A DNA stretch of 43,065 nt from Pseudomonadota bacterium (GTDB lineage: Bacteria > Pseudomonadota > Gammaproteobacteria > Steroidobacterales > Steroidobacteraceae). Positions 8,538-28,605 of the stretch are shown here, piece by piece. The notes under the pieces were generated by a model that worked only from the letters and a program-made list of their open reading frames with translations, had not been told where the DNA came from and searched no databases. The DNA lies in assembly GCA_021777555.1 (NCBI GenBank), contig JAJYDK010000034.1:1-43065 (forward strand), written 5' to 3'. Numbering within the stretch: position 1 is the stretch's first letter; the number at the start of each line of letters is the position of its first letter. Both the position numbers and the translations under genes were made by a program.

Positions 8538-10757
8538 TCATGGAGTTTCGGGATTCGAATCCTGCTCGTCGAAATCGTCCTCGGCGCGACCGCCACGCGC
8601 ATGAGCGGCGATGGTCCGGCTGACGCGGGTCACGTCCGGCAATCGCCGGATGACGCGCATCACGCGCGCCAGCTGCTTGCGATCGCGGACTTTGAGCTGG
8701 AAGGTGAGGATCGACGCATCACCTTCCTGCTCCTCGATCGAGACATGATGGATGTTGGTGTCGGCGCTGGCAATGGCCGCGGCCACCCCGGCGAGCACGC
8801 CCGTACGGTTGGCCACGTTCACGCGGATCTCCGAGCTGAAGAGCCGATCCGGGGCGTTTTGCCAGCTCACCGGCAGCCATTTCTCGGGGTGCTTGCGATA
8901 GTCCTCGACGTTGACGCAGCGGTCGCGATGGATGACCACGCCGCGCCCGGCCGAGAGGAATGCGAACACCGGGTCGTTGGGCAACGGGAAGCAGCAGCGC
9001 GCATAGGTGACGAGCAACCCCTCGGTGCCGGCGATCGCAAGCGGCGCGGGCTTGTTCGCGCCTGCTTCCACGGCGGCCCCGGGCAGCAGGCGACGCGCCA
9101 CGAGCGGCGCCAGGCGCTCGCCGAGGCCGATCTTCTCGTGCAGCTCGTCGAAGTTCTTCATGCCGAACTCCCCGAGCATCGCATCCCGGCTCTCGGGGCC
9201 GACGTCCTCGAGGGACAGATGAAACTCCGCGAGCGCCTGCGAGAGCAGCCGGTGGCCGAGCTCGATCGCCTCGGTGCGCCGCAGGCTCTTCAGATAGTGC
9301 CGTATGGCGCTGCGCGCCTTGGCGGTGACCACGAAGCCGACCCAGGCGGGGTTGGGCACCGCGCCCTTGGCGGTGATGATCTCCACCGTCTGTCCATTGC
9401 GCAGCACGGTGCGCAGCGGCGTCAGGCGCCGGTCCACCTTGGCCGCGACACAGCGGTTGCCGACGTCGGTGTGCACGGAGTAGGCGAAATCGACCACCGT
9501 GGCCCCGCTCGGGAGCCTGAGGATCTTGCCCTTGGGGGTGAAGACATACACCTTGTCCGGGAAGAGATCGACCTTGACGCTCTCCAGGAACTCCTCCGAG
9601 CTCCCGTCCTCCTGCAGCTCCACCAGGCTCGAGAGCCACTCCCGCGCCCGCTGCTGCTGCATGGAGTCCGCGCCACCGCCGGATTTGTATTTCCAGTGGG
9701 CGGCGATGCCGGATTCGGCCACGCCGTGCATGTCCTCGGTGCGGATCTGCACCTCGATGGGCACGGCGTTCGGACCAAAGAGCGTCGTATGGAGCGACTG
9801 GTAACCGTTCACCCGGGGGATGGCGATGTAGTCCTTGAAGCGGCCGGGCATGGGCTTGAACACCGAGTGCACCACCCCGAGGGCCCGGTAGCAGGTGTCG
9901 AACTCATCGACCACGATGCGCAGCCCGTACACATCGACGATCTCAGAGAGGGAGGTGCGCTTGCGCAGCATCTTCTTGTAGATGCTGTAGATATGCTTCT
10001 CGCGGGTCTCGACCCGCGCCCCAATGCCCCGCTTCTCGAGCGCCGCCGACAGCTGCTCTTCGATCTTCTTGAGGAACTCCTTCTGGTTGCCGCGAGCCTT
10101 GCGCAGGGCGTATTCCAACACCCGGTAGCGCCGGGGGTACAGCGCCTGGAACCCCAGCTCCTCGAGCTCGAGTTTCAGGTTGTAGAGCCCGAGCCTCTCG
10201 GCGATGGGCGCATAGATCTCGAGCGTCTCGCGCGCGATCGCGCGCCGCCGGTGCGGCGGCATCGCGTCGATGGTGCGCATGTTGTGCGTGCGGTCGGCGA
10301 GCTTCACCAGGATGACGCGCAGGTCCCGCACCATCGCGAGCAGCATCTTGCGGAAGGACTCGGCCTGCGCCTCCTCGCGGCTCTTGAACTGGATGGCATC
10401 GAGCTTGGTCACCCCGTCCACGAGCTCCGCCACATCCGCGCCGAAGCGCTCCGCCAATTGGTCCTTCGGCGTGCGCGTATCCTCGATGACGTCGTGGAGG
10501 ATGGCGGCGATCAGCGTGTCGGGATCGAGATGAAGGTCGGCGAGAATCGCCGCCGTGGCGACCGGATGGGCGATGAAGGGCTCGCCCGAGCGGCGTCTCT
10601 GCCCTTTGTGGGCGGAGGCGCCGAACTCCGCCGCCTCGCGGACGCGCTCGACCTGCTCGGGCGGCAGGTAACGCCCGACCGAGGCGAGCAGATCCTTCAG
10701 CCCGGGTGTGCGCCTTCCGCCGGGGAGCAGTCCCAGGAGAGAAGACGCATAATCCAT
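8538..10757 (-). CDS. spoT: Bifunctional (p)ppGpp synthetase/hydrolase SpoT
   Basis: A 739-residue RelA/SpoT homologue with all domains in order. The HD hydrolase domain carries the intact metal motif ILHDVIEDT near residue 88 and [11 protein letters not shown] near 150. The synthetase domain has [20 protein letters not shown] near 310 and [13 protein letters not shown] follows ([19 protein letters not shown]), then the helical region, the conserved CCFPLPNDP stretch and a C-terminal ACT domain. Because the HD residues are intact it should hydrolyse as well as make (p)ppGpp. It lies between rpoZ (32 nt upstream) and ridA (7 nt downstream). The ATG has no strong Shine-Dalgarno. Confidence 0.97.
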
Positions 10758-10789: not shown

Positions 10790-11077
10790 TCATTCTCTCA
10801 GGCCGAACTGCGGGGCGCGGAAGGCAGACTGCATGTCCAGCTCCGGCACGGCGGGCGCGGCCTGCTCGGCCGGCGGCTCGGGCTCGCGCAGCATCTCGGC
10901 CGTGACGTTGCCCGCGGCAATCTCGCGCAGCGCGACCACGGTCGGCTTGTCGTTCTCCATGGGAACGGTGGGCTCGGCGCCGTTGGCGATGCGCCGGGCG
11001 CGCTGGGCCGCCAGGATCACCAGCTGGAAGAGGTTATCGACGTTTTGCAGGCAGTCTTCGACGGTGATTCGAGCCAT
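10790..11077 (-). CDS. rpoZ: RNA polymerase omega subunit
   Basis: A 95-residue omega subunit, which stabilises the beta-prime subunit and forms part of ppGpp site 1 in proteobacterial RNA polymerase. The family core is clear: [20 protein letters not shown], then [13 protein letters not shown] and [13 protein letters not shown]. The C-terminal tail after about residue 65 is proline- and alanine-rich, as is usual. It sits between the rdgB-gmk gene and spoT. The order gmk-rpoZ-spoT is conserved in E. coli and many relatives. Confidence 0.95.
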
Positions 11078-11154: not shown

Positions 11155-12399
11155 TCAGGCCAGCAGGCGCCTCAGGAGCGGTGCCAGCTCGGGCCTGCCG
11201 GCCGCCAGCGTCTCGCCTTGTCCTTTGACGATCCGCATCAGGTCCGTGACCGCGCGCTCGAAATCGTCATTCACCACGACGTAGTCGAATTCATTCCAGT
11301 GCGACATATCGCTCACCGCGTCCCGCAGCCGGCGGGCGATCACCTCGGCCGCATCCGTGGCGCGGCCCCGAAGCCGTTGTTCCAGCGCCTCCCGCGAAGG
11401 GGGCAACACGAAGATCGTCCGGCAGGCGGGCAGGGCGGCCCGCACCTGCCGGGCGCCCTGCCAGTCGATCTCGAGCACCACGTCCTGGCCCTGCGTGAGC
11501 GTGCGCTCGACCGGCTCGCGAGCCGTCCCATAGCAATTGTCGAAGACGCGGGCATGCTCGAGAAAGCGGCCCTCGTCCACCATCCGCTCGAACTCCGCCA
11601 CGGAGACGAAGTAGTACTCCCGGCCCTCAGTCTCGGTGGGACGCCGGGCGCGGGTGGTGTGCGAGGTCGACAGGCGCAGCTCCGGCAGGCGCGACAGCAG
11701 CTCGCGGACCAGGGAGGTCTTGCCGGCGCCCGAGGGCGCAGCGAGCACGTACAACCGGCCACGGGCGCTGGCAGAGCCGGGTTCCGAGGTCGAGGCGCCA
11801 AGCCAGGCGCCCACGCCCGCGGCCAAAGCCCGCAGCGCCTGTCCGCGGTGGCTGCGGGCGTTCTTGTCCTGCGCATCGAGCTCGGCCGCGGTACGGCTCG
11901 AGCCGGCGGGCAGGAAGATCGGGTCGTAGCCGAATCCGCCCGTGCCTCTCGGGGCCTCGGCGATGCGCCCCTCCCACGTCCCGCGGGCGATGAGCGGCTC
12001 GGGATCGTCGTGGCGCCGGACCAGGGCGATCACGCACTGGTAGCGGGCCTGCCGTCGCGCCTCGGGCACCCCGGCCAGATCGGCCAGGAGCTTGCGCAGG
12101 TTGGCCTCGTCGCTGGCGCCCTCCCCGGCGAATCGGGCGGAGTAGACCCCGGGACGGCCCTGCAGGGCGTCCACTTCGATCCCTGAATCGTCCGCAAGCG
12201 CCGGCAGCCCCGTGCTCTTCGAGGCATACCGGGCCTTGAGCAGCGCGTTGTCGAGGAAAGTCGTTCCGGTCTCGGGCGGCGGCACGAGGCCGAAGGCGCT
12301 CTGCGGCACGACCGAGAGGCCCGTGGGGGCGAGCAGCGACCCGAGCTCGCGCAGCTTGCCGGGATTGCCGCTGGCCAGGACGATTTTCATGCGCTGCAT
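11155..12399 (-). CDS. Fusion: RdgB XTP/dITP pyrophosphatase - Gmk guanylate kinase
   Basis: One uninterrupted 414-residue frame holds two complete enzymes. Residues 1-200 are RdgB, which removes XTP, ITP and dITP as monophosphates: substrate loop ASGNPGKLREL, ALADDSGIEVDALQGRPGVY, GFGYDPIF near 155 and SHRGQALRAL near 184. Residues 214-414 are guanylate kinase (GMP to GDP): P-loop APSGAGKTSLVRELL at 221, TSHTTRARRPTETEGREYYF, YGTAREPV, and VLEIDWQGARQVR near 308. The joint (about residues 201-213, GASTSEPGSASAR) is a short Ser/Ala/Gly linker with no Met, so no internal gmk start is obvious. Both halves have near-normal length and intact active-site motifs. In relatives rdgB and gmk are separate genes. 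The neighbours rph, rpoZ and spoT are the usual partners of each half. ATGs lie at residues 1 and 4. Confidence 0.93.
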   Translation of the reverse strand: MQRMKIVLASGNPGKLRELGSLLAPTGLSVVPQSAFGLVPPPETGTTFLDNALLKARYASKSTGLPALADDSGIEVDALQGRPGVYSARFAGEGASDEANLRKLLADLAGVPEARRQARYQCVIALVRRHDDPEPLIARGTWEGRIAEAPRGTGGFGYDPIFLPAGSSRTAAELDAQDKNARSHRGQALRALAAGVGAWLGASTSEPGSASARGRLYVLAAPSGAGKTSLVRELLSRLPELRLSTSHTTRARRPTETEGREYYFVSVAEFERMVDEGRFLEHARVFDNCYGTAREPVERTLTQGQDVVLEIDWQGARQVRAALPACRTIFVLPPSREALEQRLRGRATDAAEVIARRLRDAVSDMSHWNEFDYVVVNDDFERAVTDLMRIVKGQGETLAAGRPELAPLLRRLLA

Positions 12400-12481: not shown

Positions 12482-13201
12482 TCATGGATTCTCCAGGGCG
12501 CGAAGCTGCAGCGGGAACAGTCGCTCTATGCCGCCGGCCGCCAGGGCGAGCATGGCATCGAGCTCGTGCCGGCGGAACGCGTGCCCTTCGGCGGTGCCCT
12601 GCAGCTCGATGAAGGCGCCGCCGTCATTCATCACCACGTTCATGTCGACCTCGGCCTGAGAGTCCTCCCGGTAGTCGAGGTCGAGCACCGGATCGCCGCC
12701 CACGATGCCGACCGAGATCGCGGCCACCTGACCGTGCAGCGGATTCGCGGCGATCTGCCGTCGTTTGAGCAGCAGGCGGCATGCCTGTGCGAGCGCCACG
12801 TAGCCGCCCGCAATGGAGGCTGTGCGCGTCCCTCCGTCGGCCTGCAGCACGTCGCAGTCCACGGTGACGGTACGCTCGCCGAGCGCCTTGAGGTCGATGA
12901 TCGCCCGGAGTGAGCGGCCGATGAGTCGCTGGATCTCGAGTGTGCGGCCGCCCTGCTTGCCGCGAGCCGCCTCACGGGCGGATCGCGTGTGCGTGGCACG
13001 GGGCAGCATGCCGTACTCGGCCGTGACCCAGCCTTGACCCTTGCCCCGCAGGAAGGCCGGCACCGAGTCCTCGACGCTCGCGGTGCACAGCACCTGCGTG
13101 TCGCCGAACTCGACCAGCACGGAGCCTTCGGCATGTTTGGCGAAACGGCTCGTGAAGCTCACCTGCCGCATCTGATCGGGAGCGCGTCCACTCGGTCGCA
13201 T
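12482..13201 (-). CDS. rph: Ribonuclease PH
   Basis: A 239-residue phosphorolytic 3'-5' exoribonuclease that trims tRNA 3' ends and forms a hexameric ring. Family motifs: [17 protein letters not shown] at the start, [20 protein letters not shown], the [18 protein letters not shown] and RSLRAIID catalytic and phosphate-binding stretches, and [21 protein letters not shown] chose the ATG at 13201, which has GGAAAAG just upstream, over the in-frame TTG seven codons earlier. It follows the phosphatase gene by 28 nt and precedes rdgB-gmk by 82 nt; rph-rdgB adjacency is common in proteobacteria. Confidence 0.96.
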
Positions 13202-13229
13202 GTCTTTTCCGGTCTCTCTCAAACTTCGG

Positions 13230-13991
13230 TCATTTCGGGTCCAGCCACCGCAAAGCGGCGACGGATGTGTTGTCGCTCGCGGCGCCGACGCGCTTCACCG
13301 CGCGCCGGGCAAGCTCGAGCACCGTCTCGCGCAGCGGCGTGCCCGAGCCCAGCGCGGCCACCAGCTCGCCCTCCTTGAGTCCACCCCAGAGGCCATCGCT
13401 GCACACGAGCAACGTGTCGCCCGGCTCGAGCGCGACGCGGCGGGTGATCGCCATGTCGGGCAGGATCGGAATGCCGCCCAGGCAGCATTCCACATAATTG
13501 CGCATCGGATGAGCCTGCGCCTGCTCGGCGGTGATCAGGCCGTCACGCAGCAGTCCTTCCACGTGACTGTGGTCGCGGCTGCGTCCCACGAGCTTGCCGC
13601 GTCGCACATGGTAGATCCGGCTGTCGCCGACGTGCGCCCACCAGGATGCCTCCTGCTGCACGAGGCACAGCGCACAGGTGGCGCGCGGCCGCTGGTCAAT
13701 CGGCAGCGACTCGCCGAGCTTGACCACTTCATCGTGAGCGCGGCCGAGGGCCAGGTGCAGGAACCCCATGGGATCGAACAGCGGCCGCGGCACTTGCTTG
13801 AAGGCCTCGAGCACGACCTGTCGCGTGATCTCGGCGGCGCGCGCGCCATTGGCGTATCCGCCCATACCGTCGGCGACGAGCAGGAGCGACGCCTGCTCGG
13901 TCACGACGGTGGCGACCCGGTCCTGGTTCTCTGCGCGCCCGCCCAGCAGGCTGACGTCGGCATAGTCGATCCGCAAGGATGATCCGCGCAT
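13230..13991 (-). CDS. PP2C-type serine/threonine protein phosphatase
   Basis: A 253-residue PPM-family phosphatase with all the metal-binding aspartate motifs: GGRAENQDR near residue 17, [17 protein letters not shown] near 37, [17 protein letters not shown] near 117, CSDGLWGG near 197 and the final [11 protein letters not shown]. It has no membrane segment, so it is cytoplasmic and of the Stp1/PrpC type. Such genes often pair with a Hanks-type kinase; none is visible in the window. It is divergent from yicC (61 nt between starts) and leads the minus-strand run into rph, a placement seen in other gammaproteobacteria. Confidence 0.9.
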
Positions 13992-14052: not shown

Positions 14053-14916
14053 ATGATTTCCAGCATGACCGGTTTCGCACGCCGCGAGCTCTCGGGCCCC
14101 TGGGGGATGCTCGTGTGCGAGCTGCGCAGCGTCAATCACCGCTTTCTCGAGGCGGGTTTCCGCCTGCCGGAGGAGCTGCGCGCCCTGGAAGGGGAGCTCA
14201 GGACCCGCCTCGCGCGCGACATCCGCCGCGGCAAGGTCGACTGCACCATCGCCTACCGGGCCGCGCACGCCGCCGCGGCCAGCCTCGAGGTGGACCCTCA
14301 GGTGCTCGAGCGCCTGACGGCCCGGCTCGATGAGCTGCAGCGGGTCATCCCGGTCGGCACGGTCAATCTGCTCGAGGTCCTGCGCTGGCCGGGCGTGCTC
14401 AAGGACGTGACGCCGAGCGGAGAGGAGCTCCTCACCGCGGCGCGGTCGCTGTTCGACGGGGCGACGGATGAGCTCAAGGCCGCCCGGGCGCGTGAGGGCG
14501 AGAAGCTGCGCGAGGTGCTCGAGCAGCGCTGCACCGGGCTCGAAGCCCTCGTCAAGCAGGTGCACGCGAGGCTGCCCGAGATCCAGACGCGCCTCACCAC
14601 GCGCGTGCGCGAGCGCGTCAAGGAACTCGCCTCGACGGCAGATCCCGACCGCCTGGAGCAGGAAATCGCGCTGCTCCTGCAGCGCCTCGATGTGGACGAG
14701 GAGCTCGAGCGCCTCACCGGCCACATCACGGAAGTCCGCCGCGTCATCGCCGCCGACGAGCCCGCGGGACGCCGTCTCGACTTTCTCATGCAGGAGCTCA
14801 ACCGCGAGGCCAACACCCTGTCCTCGAAGTCCCAGGACCTCGAGACCACCCGCACCGCGGTCGACATGAAGGTCATCATCGAGCAGATGCGCGAGCAGGT
14901 GCAGAACGCGGAGTAG
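14053..14916 (+). CDS. yicC: YicC-family endoribonuclease
   Basis: A 287-residue YicC protein. The N-terminal signature MISSMTGFARRE, then LRSVNHRFLEAGFRLPEELR and RGKVDCTI is typical. The long helical middle leads to the conserved C-terminal DUF1732 block, with ADPDRLEQEIALLLQRLDVD, EELERLTGHI, GRRLDFLMQELNREANTLSS and KVIIEQMREQVQN. E. coli YicC has been reported as an endoribonuclease acting on small RNAs. The length is normal (287 in E. coli). It is the only plus-strand gene in this part and is divergent from the PP2C gene. Confidence 0.95.
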   Translation: MISSMTGFARRELSGPWGMLVCELRSVNHRFLEAGFRLPEELRALEGELRTRLARDIRRGKVDCTIAYRAAHAAAASLEVDPQVLERLTARLDELQRVIPVGTVNLLEVLRWPGVLKDVTPSGEELLTAARSLFDGATDELKAARAREGEKLREVLEQRCTGLEALVKQVHARLPEIQTRLTTRVRERVKELASTADPDRLEQEIALLLQRLDVDEELERLTGHITEVRRVIAADEPAGRRLDFLMQELNREANTLSSKSQDLETTRTAVDMKVIIEQMREQVQNAE

Positions 14917-15223
14917 CGGTACACGGATAGGTGGTGATGAATGCCCGCCCCAGCTCCGGGTAGGGTGCCTGCCCGATCACGACCAATAACGCCACTCGAT
15001 TATCCATGACCGCCGCCCGCTCATTTGGCTTGTAGCGGATGCGCCGGTCATGGGTGACGGCGATCCAGCCTTTTCTGCCGACTTCCCGCAGCCAATTCTC
15101 ATCCGGACAGTCCGCTGCGAAGTGGTCCGCATGACGCTCTACCGTCAGGCCACCCTCACACAGGATGACGGGAAATTTCTTACCCAGGTCTCGGTCGGTG
15201 AAGAAGACCCGGCCCTGCCTCAC
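14876..15223 (-). CDS. VapC45-like PIN-domain toxin, probably C-terminally truncated
   Basis: A 115-residue frame with a PIN-like core: VFFTDRDLGKKFPVILCEGG with the first acidic residues, CPDENWLREVGRKGWIAVTH with the glutamate, then DRRIRYKPNERAAV and VALLVVIG. PIN toxins of this group are metal-dependent RNases. Relatives as I remember them continue after the FITTYP-like stretch with about 35 more residues (a PPFIAKVYRP-like tail). Here the recognisable part stops almost at the yicC stop codon, and the last 15 residues (CTATPRSAPARASAR) are the antisense of yicC. The GTG start overlaps the antitoxin stop by 3 nt, the normal arrangement for such a pair. It may be inactive. Confidence 0.5.
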   Translation of the reverse strand: MRQGRVFFTDRDLGKKFPVILCEGGLTVERHADHFAADCPDENWLREVGRKGWIAVTHDRRIRYKPNERAAVMDNRVALLVVIGQAPYPELGRAFITTYPCTATPRSAPARASAR

Positions 15224-15801
15224 GCGGCGCGCTCGTAGAGCACGGCCTCCCCGACCTGCTCAGGCGTCAGGTCATAGTCTTCGGCCAGATCCTCGATGAA
15301 TTCCCCGGCATCGATCCGCTCGACGATGGTGTGGGTCTGAATCCCCTTTTCGACAAGTTCCGGCCGGCCGAAAGCGATCTTTGGATCGATCGCAATAGGC
15401 TTGGCGACCTGCCCGGAGGCCGACAGCTCGATCAACTCACCATACCGCTCGAGGAGCAGCTTACCGGCATTGGCACGCAGCGCCGGACTCAGTAGCAATC
15501 GGTCGATCCCAAGATGCTGCTCTGCGTAATGGATGGCACGACGTAAAGCATCCATTTTCACGCCATGATCAGTACGCAGCGAGCGCAACACGTGGGCCTC
15601 GATCAGGTTCCAGAACTACAGCGTGGGCAGGGGATTCATTGCCGGCTGGATCAGCGGCTTGGAATGAACCGTATCACTCCCCTTGGGATAATCCCGACCG
15701 ACAAGCCACGCCCGCAGCGTCGCTTGCGCCACCTTCAGGTAGCGGGCAGCCTCGGCGAGGGTGTACGCCGGCTGAGAGCGGATATCGATCGAGACTCTGG
15801 A
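15220..15801 (-). pseudogene. DUF433 antitoxin gene (VapB45-like) with premature stop
   Basis: Reading through one stop gives a full antitoxin: a MerR-like helix-turn-helix (AYTLAEAARYLKVAQATLRA then WLVGRDYPKGSD), a linker (KPLIQPAMNPLPTL), FWNLIEAHVLRSLRTDHGVK, and the C-terminal DUF433 part (DPKIAFGRPELVEKGIQTHT then EDYDLTPEQVGEAVLYERA). A TAG at 15616-15618 falls between LPTL and FWNLIEAH, where relatives usually have Ser; one base change from TCG would explain it. No ATG, GTG or TTG precedes the helix-turn-helix: the frame begins directly behind the stop codon of the HNH gene. A restart at GTG 15591 could still give a 123-residue protein without the DNA-binding domain. Confidence 0.65.
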
Positions 15802-16794
15802 TCAGCGCCTCGAGACTCCGCGCGCCATACGCAGGACGTTCTCACGATGAAACTCGAGATACCGCCTCTGCCCCTCCGAGAAGATTCCGACATTCACCTG
15901 AGCCTCGCGATCGACTCCCATCCGTTTGAGCGACACCGGGTCAGCCACCGGCGACACAATGAGCTGTCCCGTGTTCTCGAAGGAAATGAACCCCTTGTCG
16001 AAGAGGTGATCCACGGTCGGGGTCAGGAGCAAGCCGTTTTCGCCATCGAGCCGCTGCTCGTTGCTGCTGTCGCGCCAGGGCTGGATGTGGCTCGCGATCA
16101 GGTGCTCCATGCGCTCCACTCGGGTAATGCGGCAGGCGCGCTCGATCGAGCGTACATTGTCTCGGAAGATCCCCTGACCGCGGCGCGCCTGGACCAGCGC
16201 CGTCCTCTCGGTCTGCGGGATCCTCGCGTTCGTGTCGATGGCGACCTCGATGCGCCTCTCCCATTCCTCGATGTCCCGTTCGGGCGCCGGGGAGTCGCGC
16301 TCGACTCGACTGATCTCCCTCCCCGCGTCCGCCACCCGGTTGGCCTCGGCACCGATCAGAGAAAAGAGCTCCGACGCCAGCACCCGGCCGATCTCAGTCA
16401 GGTAGATGCCCTGCAGGCCATTGCCGTCCTGAGTCAGGGGCGCGTACTGCCGTGGCAAGACCGATCGTAGCCGTCCGATATGATCCTTGGGACGAATGGC
16501 GTTAGAAAGGCGCTGCCAGCGAACGCCCACGCGCCAGCCGATCTGGCTCCAATTGGTGCCGGCGGTGCCGAATTCCTCCGGCTTCGGGCTCTCCCGGCAA
16601 TAGCCGCTGACGATGCCGAGCGCGGCAATGCGCGTGTCACAGAACGAGAAGACGAGATCGCCGGGGGCCACCTCACGCATGAACTCGTAGAAGGGATTGC
16701 GGTGGCCGTTCTTATTGCGTTTGGGCGACCAGAGATAGCCGCCGTCGATCTCCTGGCGGAAGGTCTGATTCTGGTTGACCCACCAGTAGCGCAT
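15802..16794 (-). CDS. EVE/PUA-like - HNH endonuclease, likely modification-dependent restriction enzyme
   Basis: A 330-residue two-domain protein. Residues 1-125 resemble an EVE/PUA-superfamily module (RYWWVNQNQTFRQEIDGGYL, then YEFMREVAPGDLVFSFCDTR and IAALGIVSG), a fold that in other proteins flips out and reads modified bases. Residues 215-285 are an HNH_2-type nuclease: ERACRITRVERMEHLIASHI with His236, then NEQRLDGENGLLLTPTVDHL with Asn253 and His263, and FDKGFISF. In the PUA-HNH group this pairing cuts DNA with modified cytosines, so a type IV-like anti-phage role is likely by inference. Its ATG overlaps the stop codon of the helicase gene by one base, so translation is probably coupled. 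Confidence 0.8.
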   Translation of the reverse strand: MRYWWVNQNQTFRQEIDGGYLWSPKRNKNGHRNPFYEFMREVAPGDLVFSFCDTRIAALGIVSGYCRESPKPEEFGTAGTNWSQIGWRVGVRWQRLSNAIRPKDHIGRLRSVLPRQYAPLTQDGNGLQGIYLTEIGRVLASELFSLIGAEANRVADAGREISRVERDSPAPERDIEEWERRIEVAIDTNARIPQTERTALVQARRGQGIFRDNVRSIERACRITRVERMEHLIASHIQPWRDSSNEQRLDGENGLLLTPTVDHLFDKGFISFENTGQLIVSPVADPVSLKRMGVDREAQVNVGIFSEGQRRYLEFHRENVLRMARGVSRR

Positions 16795-18740
16795 CAGCTG
16801 CTGTCGGAGTCCGGCTCAATGCCATAAGGCATGACGGGTTCAGCAACTTTCAACATGCCCTCCGTGCTTTGCGAACCGCAGGTCAACCGACTCCGCACGA
16901 AGTGCTCCAACGCCTTGTCGGTGAAGTACACGTAGCAGCCTTTCATCCCCCGGGTCATCAGCGTTCGATACGTGTTCTTGATGATCAGCTCCGCCTTCCG
17001 CTTCGCCTTCGCGGGCTCGGTCTTCAACAGGCTCCTGTATCCGTTCAGTGACTTATCGTGTGAAGATCGCATCTCGGGCTGTGCGATCACCCGGCCGCCC
17101 CGGAAGACGAGATCGGGGCCCACGATCACCCCGATGTAGTCGACTTCCAAGCCCTGGCACGTATGTATGCAGCCGATCTCGTTTATGGATTCGGGTGCAA
17201 CCATCCAAAGACCCCCGTCCTTGGTCAGATTCCACCGCATGGCAAAGCCGTGCTCCGGGAATGCGACGTCCTGCACCGAGGGATCCTTGCGGCTGCGCCA
17301 GTCCCAGCAGTATCCCGCCACCATTCGGGCCTTGTTGCGGGTCTTGTTGCGCTCCACGATTTCGCGCCGCAGGTGTTCGGGAGATGCAAATATCCGAAAG
17401 TCGAACTCGCCGGGGTCGAGCTTGTCGTTGGCTGTCGGCCGGACTCCGAGAGTGTCGTCGAGCCAAGCCAGATAACCGTCCGATCCGCTACATCGAAACT
17501 GCGACGCAAGCTGTAACGTCGTCACCTGCGCCCCCGCTTCGCGCGCGAAGCGCTCGATCTCCATCCGGTCCCCGATATCCTTGAGCGTCACCCGCTGATC
17601 TTCGTCGAGAAAGAAAATTGAACACTTCGCCGACCCTATGAGTTCCTGGATCTGGTTGTTTCCCCGGTTGCCGTACAGACCGGATTTCTCGTTCAGTCGG
17701 TGCGCCTCGTCTACGATCAACGCATCGAACGTGTTCGCGTGCGTCTCCGTGAACGACCCCGATCCGGAGAACAGATTGGAGATCTGGGACTTTCGATGCG
17801 TTCCGACCAGGACGCTCTCGAATACCTTGCGCGGAGCAGCATTCTTGGTAACGTATCGGGCCACCAGCCGCCGTCCCGTCAGGGCGACCAGCAGGTTGAT
17901 TGCGACCACTGACTTGCCGGTGCCCGGACCGCCCTCGACGATCACGACCTGTTTCGAATGGGCGGCGGCCCGCGCCGCCAGGGACAACGCCGTTTCGTAG
18001 ATCACCTTCTGGTCGTCCACGAGAACGAACTCCGGCTTGCCGGCCAGCATGCCCTTGAGGCTTTCGACGAGCCCTTTCGAAGGCCGGATCCGGCCATTTT
18101 CGATCCGATACAGCAGCGATCTCCGGTCCCCGTACCGGACGTGTTGCTTCAAGAACGCCCGAAGCTTTGCCCGCTCTTCCTCTCCCTTCAGGAAAACCGG
18201 CGCCAGCACCACGTAATGCGCGTAAAAGGAATCCGTCAGCACCCCGTCTTCCGTATAGTTGTGCAGATACGCGCACGGATGAAGCGCCACCCCTCCCTCA
18301 TACACCGTCTCGTTGAAATTCCTGAGCAGCGATGCGTACGACCACGCTTGATAGGACGGATGACTGACGTCGGCCTGGCCATGCCCGAATCGGGTGCTGA
18401 CGATGCCGTCGCGATCCGTCTTGCGGGCGCTTTCCCACTGCTTGAGCTCGATGATGATGATCTGCTCGACGCGCTCACCGCTTTCTCCGGTGATGATGAC
18501 GTCGACCCGCTTCGAGGTTTGCGGAATGCCGTATTCGATGGCGACTCCGCAGTCCCCCGGGATCGCCTCGTCATGAAGGACCTTGGCCACGGCGAGGAGC
18601 GACTCCTTCCATGATCGCACCTCCGAGCGCGCCACGCTTCTACCGGTACGCGCCCTGAAGTCCCGCAGCACCAGGTCCTCGATGTCCTTGCTGAACGCGT
18701 CCTGGAGAAATCCCGCCTTGCTGTTCTGGTATACGATCAT
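16794..18740 (-). CDS. DUF2075 / Schlafen-group-3 helicase with N-terminal nuclease-like domain
   Basis: A 648-residue protein. Residues about 40-180 resemble a PD-(D/E)xK nuclease: Glu69, then KRVDVIITG with Asp80, and IIIIELKQW with Glu98 and Lys100. A P-loop helicase of the DUF2075 type follows: Walker A VEGGPGTGKSVVAINLL at 268, Walker B ALIVDEAHRLNE at 340, IFFLDEDQRVTL near 375, LASQFRCSGSDGYLAWLD, IHTCQGLEVDYIGVIVGPDL and TLMTRGMKGCYVYFTD near the end. Pfam calls this helicase SLFN-g3. The family is widespread and often accessory, with little experimental work that I know of. It is the middle gene of a three-gene operon, 9 nt after the MazG-like gene and overlapping the HNH gene. Confidence 0.85.
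   Translation of the reverse strand: MIVYQNSKAGFLQDAFSKDIEDLVLRDFRARTGRSVARSEVRSWKESLLAVAKVLHDEAIPGDCGVAIEYGIPQTSKRVDVIITGESGERVEQIIIIELKQWESARKTDRDGIVSTRFGHGQADVSHPSYQAWSYASLLRNFNETVYEGGVALHPCAYLHNYTEDGVLTDSFYAHYVVLAPVFLKGEEERAKLRAFLKQHVRYGDRRSLLYRIENGRIRPSKGLVESLKGMLAGKPEFVLVDDQKVIYETALSLAARAAAHSKQVVIVEGGPGTGKSVVAINLLVALTGRRLVARYVTKNAAPRKVFESVLVGTHRKSQISNLFSGSGSFTETHANTFDALIVDEAHRLNEKSGLYGNRGNNQIQELIGSAKCSIFFLDEDQRVTLKDIGDRMEIERFAREAGAQVTTLQLASQFRCSGSDGYLAWLDDTLGVRPTANDKLDPGEFDFRIFASPEHLRREIVERNKTRNKARMVAGYCWDWRSRKDPSVQDVAFPEHGFAMRWNLTKDGGLWMVAPESINEIGCIHTCQGLEVDYIGVIVGPDLVFRGGRVIAQPEMRSSHDKSLNGYRSLLKTEPAKAKRKAELIIKNTYRTLMTRGMKGCYVYFTDKALEHFVRSRLTCGSQSTEGMLKVAEPVMPYGIEPDSDSS
18228..18350 (-). 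repeat. Source copy of a 123-bp duplicated segment
   Basis: This part of the DUF2075 gene (codons about 131-171, containing AWSYASLLRNFNETVYEGG) recurs at 20472-20594 in the same orientation, without gaps. I count 12 differences in 123 bases by eye, about 90% identity. The intact gene is here; the other copy is a fragment. Confidence 0.9.
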
Positions 18741-25932: not shown

Positions 25933-27144
25933 TTAGCCGCCCGTTTGCCTCGATTCCGGGAGAAAATGCGTCAGCACATCATTCAGGAAGCGCAGACCGA
26001 GAGGGCTCGCCCGGTAGCACATCCCTTCCCGCAGGATCAATTCCCGGCCGACGAGCTGATCGAGCGTCGGCCTCACGGCCTCCCAGTCGAGCCCCGTTCG
26101 CCGCGCAAACAGCCCGGCCTCGAACCCCTCCACCAGCCTCAGGGCGTTCAGCATGAACTCGAACGGCAGATCTTCGGCAGGCACGATCCTGCGATTGCCT
26201 GCGCCTGCGCCTGCGCTCGCCAGATACCGCCGGGGCTCCCGCGGCTGGGCGGACCGCCAGATCTCTCGGGCATCGGCCTGGGTCAGCTTGCCGTGTGCCC
26301 CGGCGCCAAGCCCCAGGTAATCCCCGAACCGCCAGTAGTTGAGGTTGTGGCGGCACCGGTGGCCGGGCGTTGCATACCCGGACACCTCGTACCGGCTGAA
26401 GCCCGCCACGCGCAGCCGCTCCTCGCACACCGCCAGCATCCTCTCGATCACCTCCTCGTCCGGCAGCGGCGGCGGGCGGGCGGCGAAGACCGTGCCGGGT
26501 TCCATCGTGAGCTGGTAGTGCGAAAGATGCGCCGGCGCCAGCAGGAGCGCCTCCCTGACGTCCCGCTCCGCGCCCTCGGCATCCTGCCCCGGCAGGCCGT
26601 ACATCAGATCGAGGTTGAAATTCGCGATGCCGGCCGCGTGCAGCTCCTCGACCGCCCGGCGAGTCTCCTCGGGCGAATGGATGCGGCCGAGGGCCCGCAG
26701 GCGCTCGGCATCGAAGCTCTGCGCGCCGAGGGACACGCGGTTGACACCCGCCGCGCGGTATTCCGCGAACCGACCACGCTCGATGGTCCCTGGGTTGGCT
26801 TCCAGGGTCACCTCGAGATCGGAGGCGAGGCGCAGGTGGCGGCCGACCGTCTCGAGCACACGGGCCATGGCGCGCGGCGAGAACAGGCTCGGCGTGCCCC
26901 CGCCGAGGAAGATGCTGCTCACTTCGCGTCCGCGCACGGCGGGCGCCTGGGCCGACAGATCCGCGCCCAGCGCCTCGACATAAGCGTCCTCCGCGAATCC
27001 ATCGCGCGCGGCATATGAGTTGAAATCGCAATACGGACACTTGCGCACGCACCAGGGAAAGTGCACGTAGAGCGCGAGCGGTGGGGTGTCGAGCACGGTG
27101 GTCAAGGCTGCCTGCGGCCGCAATAGTACGAGGATTGACGCCAC
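25933..27144 (-). CDS. hemW: HemW-family radical SAM protein (CPO-III-like heme chaperone)
   Basis: A 403-residue radical SAM protein. The cluster motif is CVRKCPYCDF, with the phenylalanine after the third cysteine that is typical of HemW and CPDH. FLGGGTPSLFSP, LEVTLEANPGT, GVNRVSLGAQSFD and NFNLDLMYGLPGQ follow, then HLSHYQLTMEPGT and HRCRHNLNYWRFGDYLGLGA, with the HNxxYW segment linked to heme binding in HemW. It lacks the extra N-terminal cysteine of HemN, so HemW rather than coproporphyrinogen dehydrogenase is the better call. The start appears to be GTG at 27144. Here it is separate from rdgB, its neighbour in E. coli. Confidence 0.92.
   Translation of the reverse strand: MASILVLLRPQAALTTVLDTPPLALYVHFPWCVRKCPYCDFNSYAARDGFAEDAYVEALGADLSAQAPAVRGREVSSIFLGGGTPSLFSPRAMARVLETVGRHLRLASDLEVTLEANPGTIERGRFAEYRAAGVNRVSLGAQSFDAERLRALGRIHSPEETRRAVEELHAAGIANFNLDLMYGLPGQDAEGAERDVREALLLAPAHLSHYQLTMEPGTVFAARPPPLPDEEVIERMLAVCEERLRVAGFSRYEVSGYATPGHRCRHNLNYWRFGDYLGLGAGAHGKLTQADAREIWRSAQPREPRRYLASAGAGAGNRRIVPAEDLPFEFMLNALRLVEGFEAGLFARRTGLDWEAVRPTLDQLVGRELILREGMCYRASPLGLRFLNDVLTHFLPESRQTGG

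Positions 27145-27306: not shown

Positions 27307-28605
<1,299 letters not shown>

Follow-up and report, generated by a model that had tools for sequence, protein, structure and literature searches.

The minus strand of the window, as the whole analysed stretch of 43,065 nucleotides is called here, contains at positions 11155 to 12399 a single open reading frame of 414 codons without a stop, which constitutes an rdgB-gmk fusion gene. Residues 6-193 of the deduced protein (11821..12384, minus strand) match the Pfam family Ham1p_like (PF01725; E-value 9.2e-65; 218.5 bits, cut-off 22.5) and the equivalog TIGR00042 (177.4 bits, curated cut-off 145.35), the nearest structures being those of the E. 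coli RdgB (1k7k, 2pyu). Residues 214-392 (11224..11760, minus strand) match the family Guanylate_kin (PF00625; E-value 1e-51) and the equivalog TIGR03263 (235.4 bits, curated cut-off 160.45), with 7u5f, 2an9 and 1s96 as corresponding guanylate kinase (Gmk) structures. Frames for a stand-alone rdgB and a stand-alone gmk were also looked for in the window, and both halves lie in the same uninterrupted frame. The original prediction of an RdgB-Gmk fusion within one 414-residue frame, including both sets of motifs, was therefore borne out by the Pfam and TIGR profiles; it had not mentioned the minus strand.

The sequences SGNxGK, NALxKA, ADDSG, FGYDP and SHR, which we take to be the conserved motifs of the RdgB/Ham1 family with the roles generally assigned to them, are all present in the window protein. 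The Gmk domain contains the P-loop APSGAGKT (residues 221-228; 11716-11739, minus strand) that, together with the other conserved Gmk motifs, presumably serves its usual function. A database protein search yielded 2109 matches of which the best 120, including the window's own protein and reaching down to 63% identity, all comprise both domains and stem from several source databases. Among these 120 proteins the RdgB motifs are found as written in 108 (SGNxGK), 112 (ETGxTF), 120 (NALxKA), 120 (ADDSG), 120 (FGYDP) and 119 cases (KNxxSHR), and the Gmk motifs in 120 (APSGAGKT), 119 (SHTTR), 116 (GREY), 111 (FLEH), 120 (YGT), 119 (EIDWQGA) and 96 cases (VNDDF). Since only 6 or 7 residues precede SGNxGK in 89 of the 108 best-listed database fusions with this motif and nine in the open reading frame of the window, translation probably starts at Met4 (12390), giving a protein of 411 residues.

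No further match to rdgB or gmk was detected at E<=0.001 in the genome to which the window belongs (4.0 Mb, 97.4% complete), neither gene thus having the separate copy for which a search had been proposed. As the fused gene is the sole gmk of this genome, its Gmk half is suggested to work; in E. coli gmk is essential. In four other fused genomes (G003, G006, G024 and G026) a second, weak match to the fusion protein was found (28-34% identity; E-values 4e-6 to 2e-9), which we interpret as other P-loop kinases. Based on the protein sequence, the RdgB half is predicted to hydrolyse dITP, XTP and ITP and the Gmk half to convert ATP and GMP to ADP and GDP.

The fused gene is directly preceded by rph, encoding RNase PH (12482..13222, minus strand), followed further upstream by a gene for a PP2C-type phosphatase (pp2c; 13230..13991, minus strand) and by yicC on the opposite strand (14053..14916, plus strand). 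Downstream of the fusion rpoZ (10790..11077, minus strand) and a gene that we take to be spoT-like (8538..10757, minus strand) were identified, so that the flanking genes, rph upstream and rpoZ-spoT downstream, are those originally predicted. A presumably hemW-like gene (25933..27144, minus strand) is located 11 kb from yicC. The gmk-rpoZ-spoT order is common to fused and unfused relatives. The fusion therefore adds nothing to it and provides no reason to assume the shared (p)ppGpp control that had been proposed from this neighbourhood.

The same architecture, which had been suggested as a target for a search in other genomes, is found in 30 of the 58 genomes of the genus, among them that of the window, besides the best 120 of the 2109 database matches. 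According to the names of database records the genus belongs to the Steroidobacteraceae. The fused state comprises 29 complete frames, all of them free of the stop or frameshift at the joint that would have spoken against a fusion, and one genome (G020) with two contig fragments which each span the joint in frame. A further 17 genus genomes show an ATGA overlap between rdgB and gmk, so that overlap or fusion together account for 47 of the 58, and two have a spacer between the genes. The remaining states occur in single genomes: G229 has the inverted order with two TGA codons between the genes, rdgB is damaged and out of frame in G033, G010 is divergent, G005 retains the rdgB-hemW joint with gmk on another contig, and in G237 gmk is represented by its end alone, located at the edge of a contig. 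No match was obtained in four of the 58 genomes. Since the frame runs through the joint without interruption in 30 of the 58 genomes, chance is excluded as its source.

Among the matches listed, no two-domain match was seen in 159 genomes from other genera of the family or in 368 other genomes of the class; nor was one seen in 397 other genomes of the phylum at E<=1e-90, a threshold that could miss a distant fusion. Three loci with long matches (G496, G385 and G188) were considered as partial fusions and rejected, their gmk loci adjoining yicC and holding no RdgB match. Within the genomes searched the fusion thus seems to occur in one genus.

The unfused members of the family that were examined have the order hemW< rdgB< rph< pp2c< yicC> gmk> rpoZ>. 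Thirteen loci carry the divergent label, 12 of them in other genera of the family and one in G010. In all 13 rdgB and gmk are oriented away from each other, with rph and yicC between the two, and pp2c is also located there in 12 of them (it is missing in G122). In 12 of the 13 loci rdgB is followed by the hemW-like gene in the same orientation, the stretch examined at the thirteenth (G087) ending 974 nt beyond rdgB, and the matches of yicC and gmk are at most 48 nt apart in seven of the 13. Three more loci outside the genus, one from the family (G060) and two from the class (G496, G385), likewise show the divergent arrangement, with rph, pp2c and yicC between rdgB and gmk. G081 bore the label divergent by default only, its two genes being located on separate contigs. 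The inverted species, where the contig is long enough, show the order yicC< pp2c> rph> rdgB> gmk> rpoZ> spoT> ridA> recG>.

An inversion of the block from rdgB to yicC would place rdgB head-to-tail onto gmk and fits these gene orders, which a deletion does not. The fusion had originally been attributed to a deletion between adjacent genes. This origin is not supported, as rdgB and gmk are opposed in the divergent relatives with three genes between them (two in G122), and it is further disfavoured by the spaced inverted species G203 and G238, in which the hemW-like gene adjoins yicC with 105 and 129 nt between the matches. The latter arrangement is what an in-place inversion with breakpoints between yicC and gmk and between rdgB and hemW predicts. 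In five overlap species in which the hemW-like gene is within reach, it is located 1.9-3.3 kb from yicC, and none of the fused loci examined has kept the far joint of yicC and hemW. In the window the conserved flank gene at 27307-28599 (plus strand) is oriented as an inversion would predict. The hemW-like gene lies on the strand opposite to that in G203 and G238 and is flipped relative to this conserved neighbour. Because of this flip and its distance of 11 kb from yicC, the far side of the block must have been rearranged again in the lineage of the window. Within the 11 kb between yicC and the hemW-like gene, at 14876-18740 (minus strand), are the genes of a PIN_10/DUF433 pair, an HNH_2 protein and a Schlafen-group-3 helicase protein, which may form a defence or toxin-antitoxin islet.

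The junction between rdgB and gmk is found in several states. In the spacer species G203 and G238, 206 and 237 nt separate the matches of the two genes, while a 4-nt stop/start overlap, ATGA, is present in all 16 split neighbours tested and additionally in G016. In species with this overlap the start of gmk falls within the rdgB stop codon, and the frame of gmk differs from that of rdgB. The loss of this stop codon is therefore not favoured as a simple route from overlap to fusion, as a change of frame would be needed too. The joint of G229 (L131) combines the two in-frame TGA codons with an apparent GTG start of gmk, and the species is nested among those with the ATGA overlap. At 2547-3160 of L167 (G033) the FGYDP segment of rdgB is missing and the reading frame of rdgB shifts ahead of gmk, the gmk frame being continuous with the rdgB tail; the damage is either genuine or due to faulty assembly. 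Four close relatives, whose genomes are larger (5.8-7.9 Mb), vary in the state of the block (G005, L130/L181; G010, L174; G203, L182; G238, L183).

Phylogenetic trees were calculated from seven genes of the neighbourhood, rdgB and gmk excluded, after three of 67 species with less than 25% of the columns (G017, G025, G237) had been left out of the first set of rows. The 30 fused species form one clade with an SH-aLRT support of 100 both in the set of 54 rows (those of the 64 that were at least 45% filled) and in a set of 52 rows from which the long-branch species G075, G080 and G089 were left out and to which G063 was added. Trees based on the short alignment of rdgB and gmk only (one of 67 species, G237, left out of the first rows; 65 of 66 rows in the later tree, without G016) split the fused rows in two. 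A tree that held them together gave a higher likelihood for the same genes and was no worse in the AU test (p-AU 0.656). In the neighbour-gene tree the divergent G010, together with G005, is placed next to G203/G238, the inverted pair with a spacer. A single clade comprising every inverted row was rejected (p-AU 0.011), and the AU test gave p 3.6e-5 for a clade of fused and spaced rows, p 0.129 for fused rows with G033 and p 0.28 for fused and overlap rows with G229. A clade of fused and overlap rows with G229 and G033, the spaced pair set aside, was not rejected (p-AU 0.364). Given the rejection of a single inverted clade and the position of G010 and G005 beside G203/G238, the inversion either reverted or happened more than once; that it was the step behind the fused clade itself is presumed from the gene orders.

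Both halves of the fusion are under purifying selection, with dN/dS values of 0.10-0.37 for the RdgB half and 0.07-0.43 for the Gmk half in 11 pairs of fused species, the pairs sharing species and one of them having very few changes. The stretch between the domains (residues 194-213; 11761..11820, minus strand) has a mean majority identity of 43% in 29 fused species compared to 83% and 85% in the domains, and its length varies from 17 to 21 residues, always in frame. The linker had been described as 13 residues long and free of Met; the lack of Met in the window holds, and the poorly conserved stretch is longer, about 20 residues. In the ten pairs with changes there its dN/dS ranges from 0.13 to 1.6, exceeding 1 in three and falling below 0.4 in four, and due to these four low values its evolution is not simply neutral. 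An AlphaFold model built with 51 fused sequences consists of two confident domains (mean pLDDT 85; pTM 0.52) connected by a linker that is predicted to be disordered (pLDDT below 50 at residues 203-211). The pTM and the low pLDDT of the linker mean that no fixed mutual placement of the domains is predicted. As modelled, the fusion presumably consists of two independent enzymes on a flexible tether.

We consider it most probable, at roughly two in three, that the gene encodes a bifunctional protein of two complete, ordinary enzymes tethered to each other, that it arose after the inversion and that the fusion secures the synthesis of Gmk. According to this reading the block rdgB-rph-pp2c-yicC would have been inverted, moving gmk from its position behind yicC to a head-to-tail position behind rdgB and creating the same-strand run pp2c-rph-rdgB-gmk-rpoZ-spoT-ridA-recG. 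Different lineages would then have secured the translation of gmk differently, either through the ATGA overlap or, in the clade of the window, through the in-frame fusion. As a consequence of the latter each Gmk would carry an RdgB, and Gmk would be made from the rph-rdgB operon, with an XTP/dITP/ITP pyrophosphatase and a GMP kinase as the two halves on the flexible tether. The reason we infer for the fusion lies in securing expression and not in chemistry. Shine-Dalgarno scores could not separate true starts from random positions, the mean energy being -1.8 at the true gmk starts of the overlap species compared to -3.1 at random positions.

The alternative that survives best is a functional coupling of the two enzymes, in which the RdgB tether would lower the amount of non-canonical purine nucleotides where GDP and dGDP are made, or the two sites would alter each other's activity or oligomeric state. 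The prevalence of overlap or fusion in the genus (47/58) is in line with such a coupling, as are the E. coli Gmk structure entries titled oligomeric, since a tether could then build larger assemblies. However, the products of RdgB (IMP, XMP and dIMP) are not substrates of Gmk, which phosphorylates GMP and dGMP, and direct channelling or hand-over is therefore unlikely. The poorly conserved linker, the lack of a predicted interdomain placement and the confinement of two-domain matches to one genus, among the matches listed for family and class and at E<=1e-90 for the phylum, also argue against the coupling, which we regard as improbable. Slightly more doubtful still appears the wider proposal that the fusion is a working purine quality-control module, the tethered RdgB altering the nucleotide pool or the Gmk assembly, and that the repeated joining of rdgB onto gmk, with ATGA coupling or fusion as the next step, reflects adaptive convergence and not chance.

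A little less credible again is the possibility that the fusion gene gives rise to a separate Gmk via internal initiation or proteolysis of the linker, for which its predicted disorder would be suitable. An efficient internal start producing free Gmk only had been named as an observation that would count against the original prediction. In 21 of 29 fused loci a GTG is located six codons ahead of GAGK, but it falls inside the first Gmk strand. A Met is kept in the linker stretch of 25 of the 115 database fusions that could be parsed (five of the 120 could not), whereas the window linker has no in-frame ATG, and such a codon was found within the 39 codons before GAGK in only two of 29 fused loci. 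Moreover, all 29 complete frames stay open, which internal initiation alone does not require. In at least four database fusions (P0041, P0049, P0057 and P0065) a Met directly precedes Gmk as MRGK, possibly as a relic of the old gmk start, and fusions that keep a linker Met could still give rise to a separate Gmk. An assembly artefact or a one-off frame error has a negligible probability and assembly error is ruled out, since, even though seven fused loci with both domains are metagenome-assembled, the same open joint is present in 30 species, nine of them on contigs above 100 kb, and in several source databases, with a linker that varies in length yet stays in frame.

The locus is of interest beyond the single protein. 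The genus and family hold divergent, spaced inverted, stop/start overlap and fused states of a sole gmk with a housekeeping sanitising enzyme. These states form a natural series in which to study how operons merge, translation becomes coupled and genes fuse after a rearrangement, and whether the fusion has any role other than to secure expression. Annotators should note that one gene carries two activities here and that some records name the guanylate kinase alone.

Our literature search, which was limited in extent, revealed no published description of an RdgB-Gmk fusion, in agreement with the original statement that none was known. The RdgB half corresponds over its whole domain to the dITP/XTP pyrophosphatase RdgB of E. 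coli (PDB 1k7k, 2pyu, 2q16; 52-54% identity over 191-196 alignment columns), and the Gmk half likewise to the enzymes of P. aeruginosa (7u5f/8egl) and E. coli (2an9/1s96) with about 48-54% identity. All of these are stand-alone proteins, whereas each forms one half of the fusion in the window. A longer chain with an RdgB/Ham1 part is also known from the NCBIfam nucleoside-triphosphate diphosphatase NF002698 (328 positions). In that family, however, the extra part precedes RdgB, and the window protein matches positions 130-323 only, with 159.1 bits compared to a cut-off of 301. The two-domain architecture itself is shared by records that are known by their database names only, namely 'guanylate kinase/non-canonical purine NTP pyrophosphatase (RdgB/HAM1 family)' at JGI and 'guanylate kinase [Steroidobacteraceae bacterium]' at NCBI. 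Both enzymes are ordinary and their combination is already named in the JGI records; what appears to be new is a lineage-specific fusion whose neighbours document the earlier states in unusual completeness.
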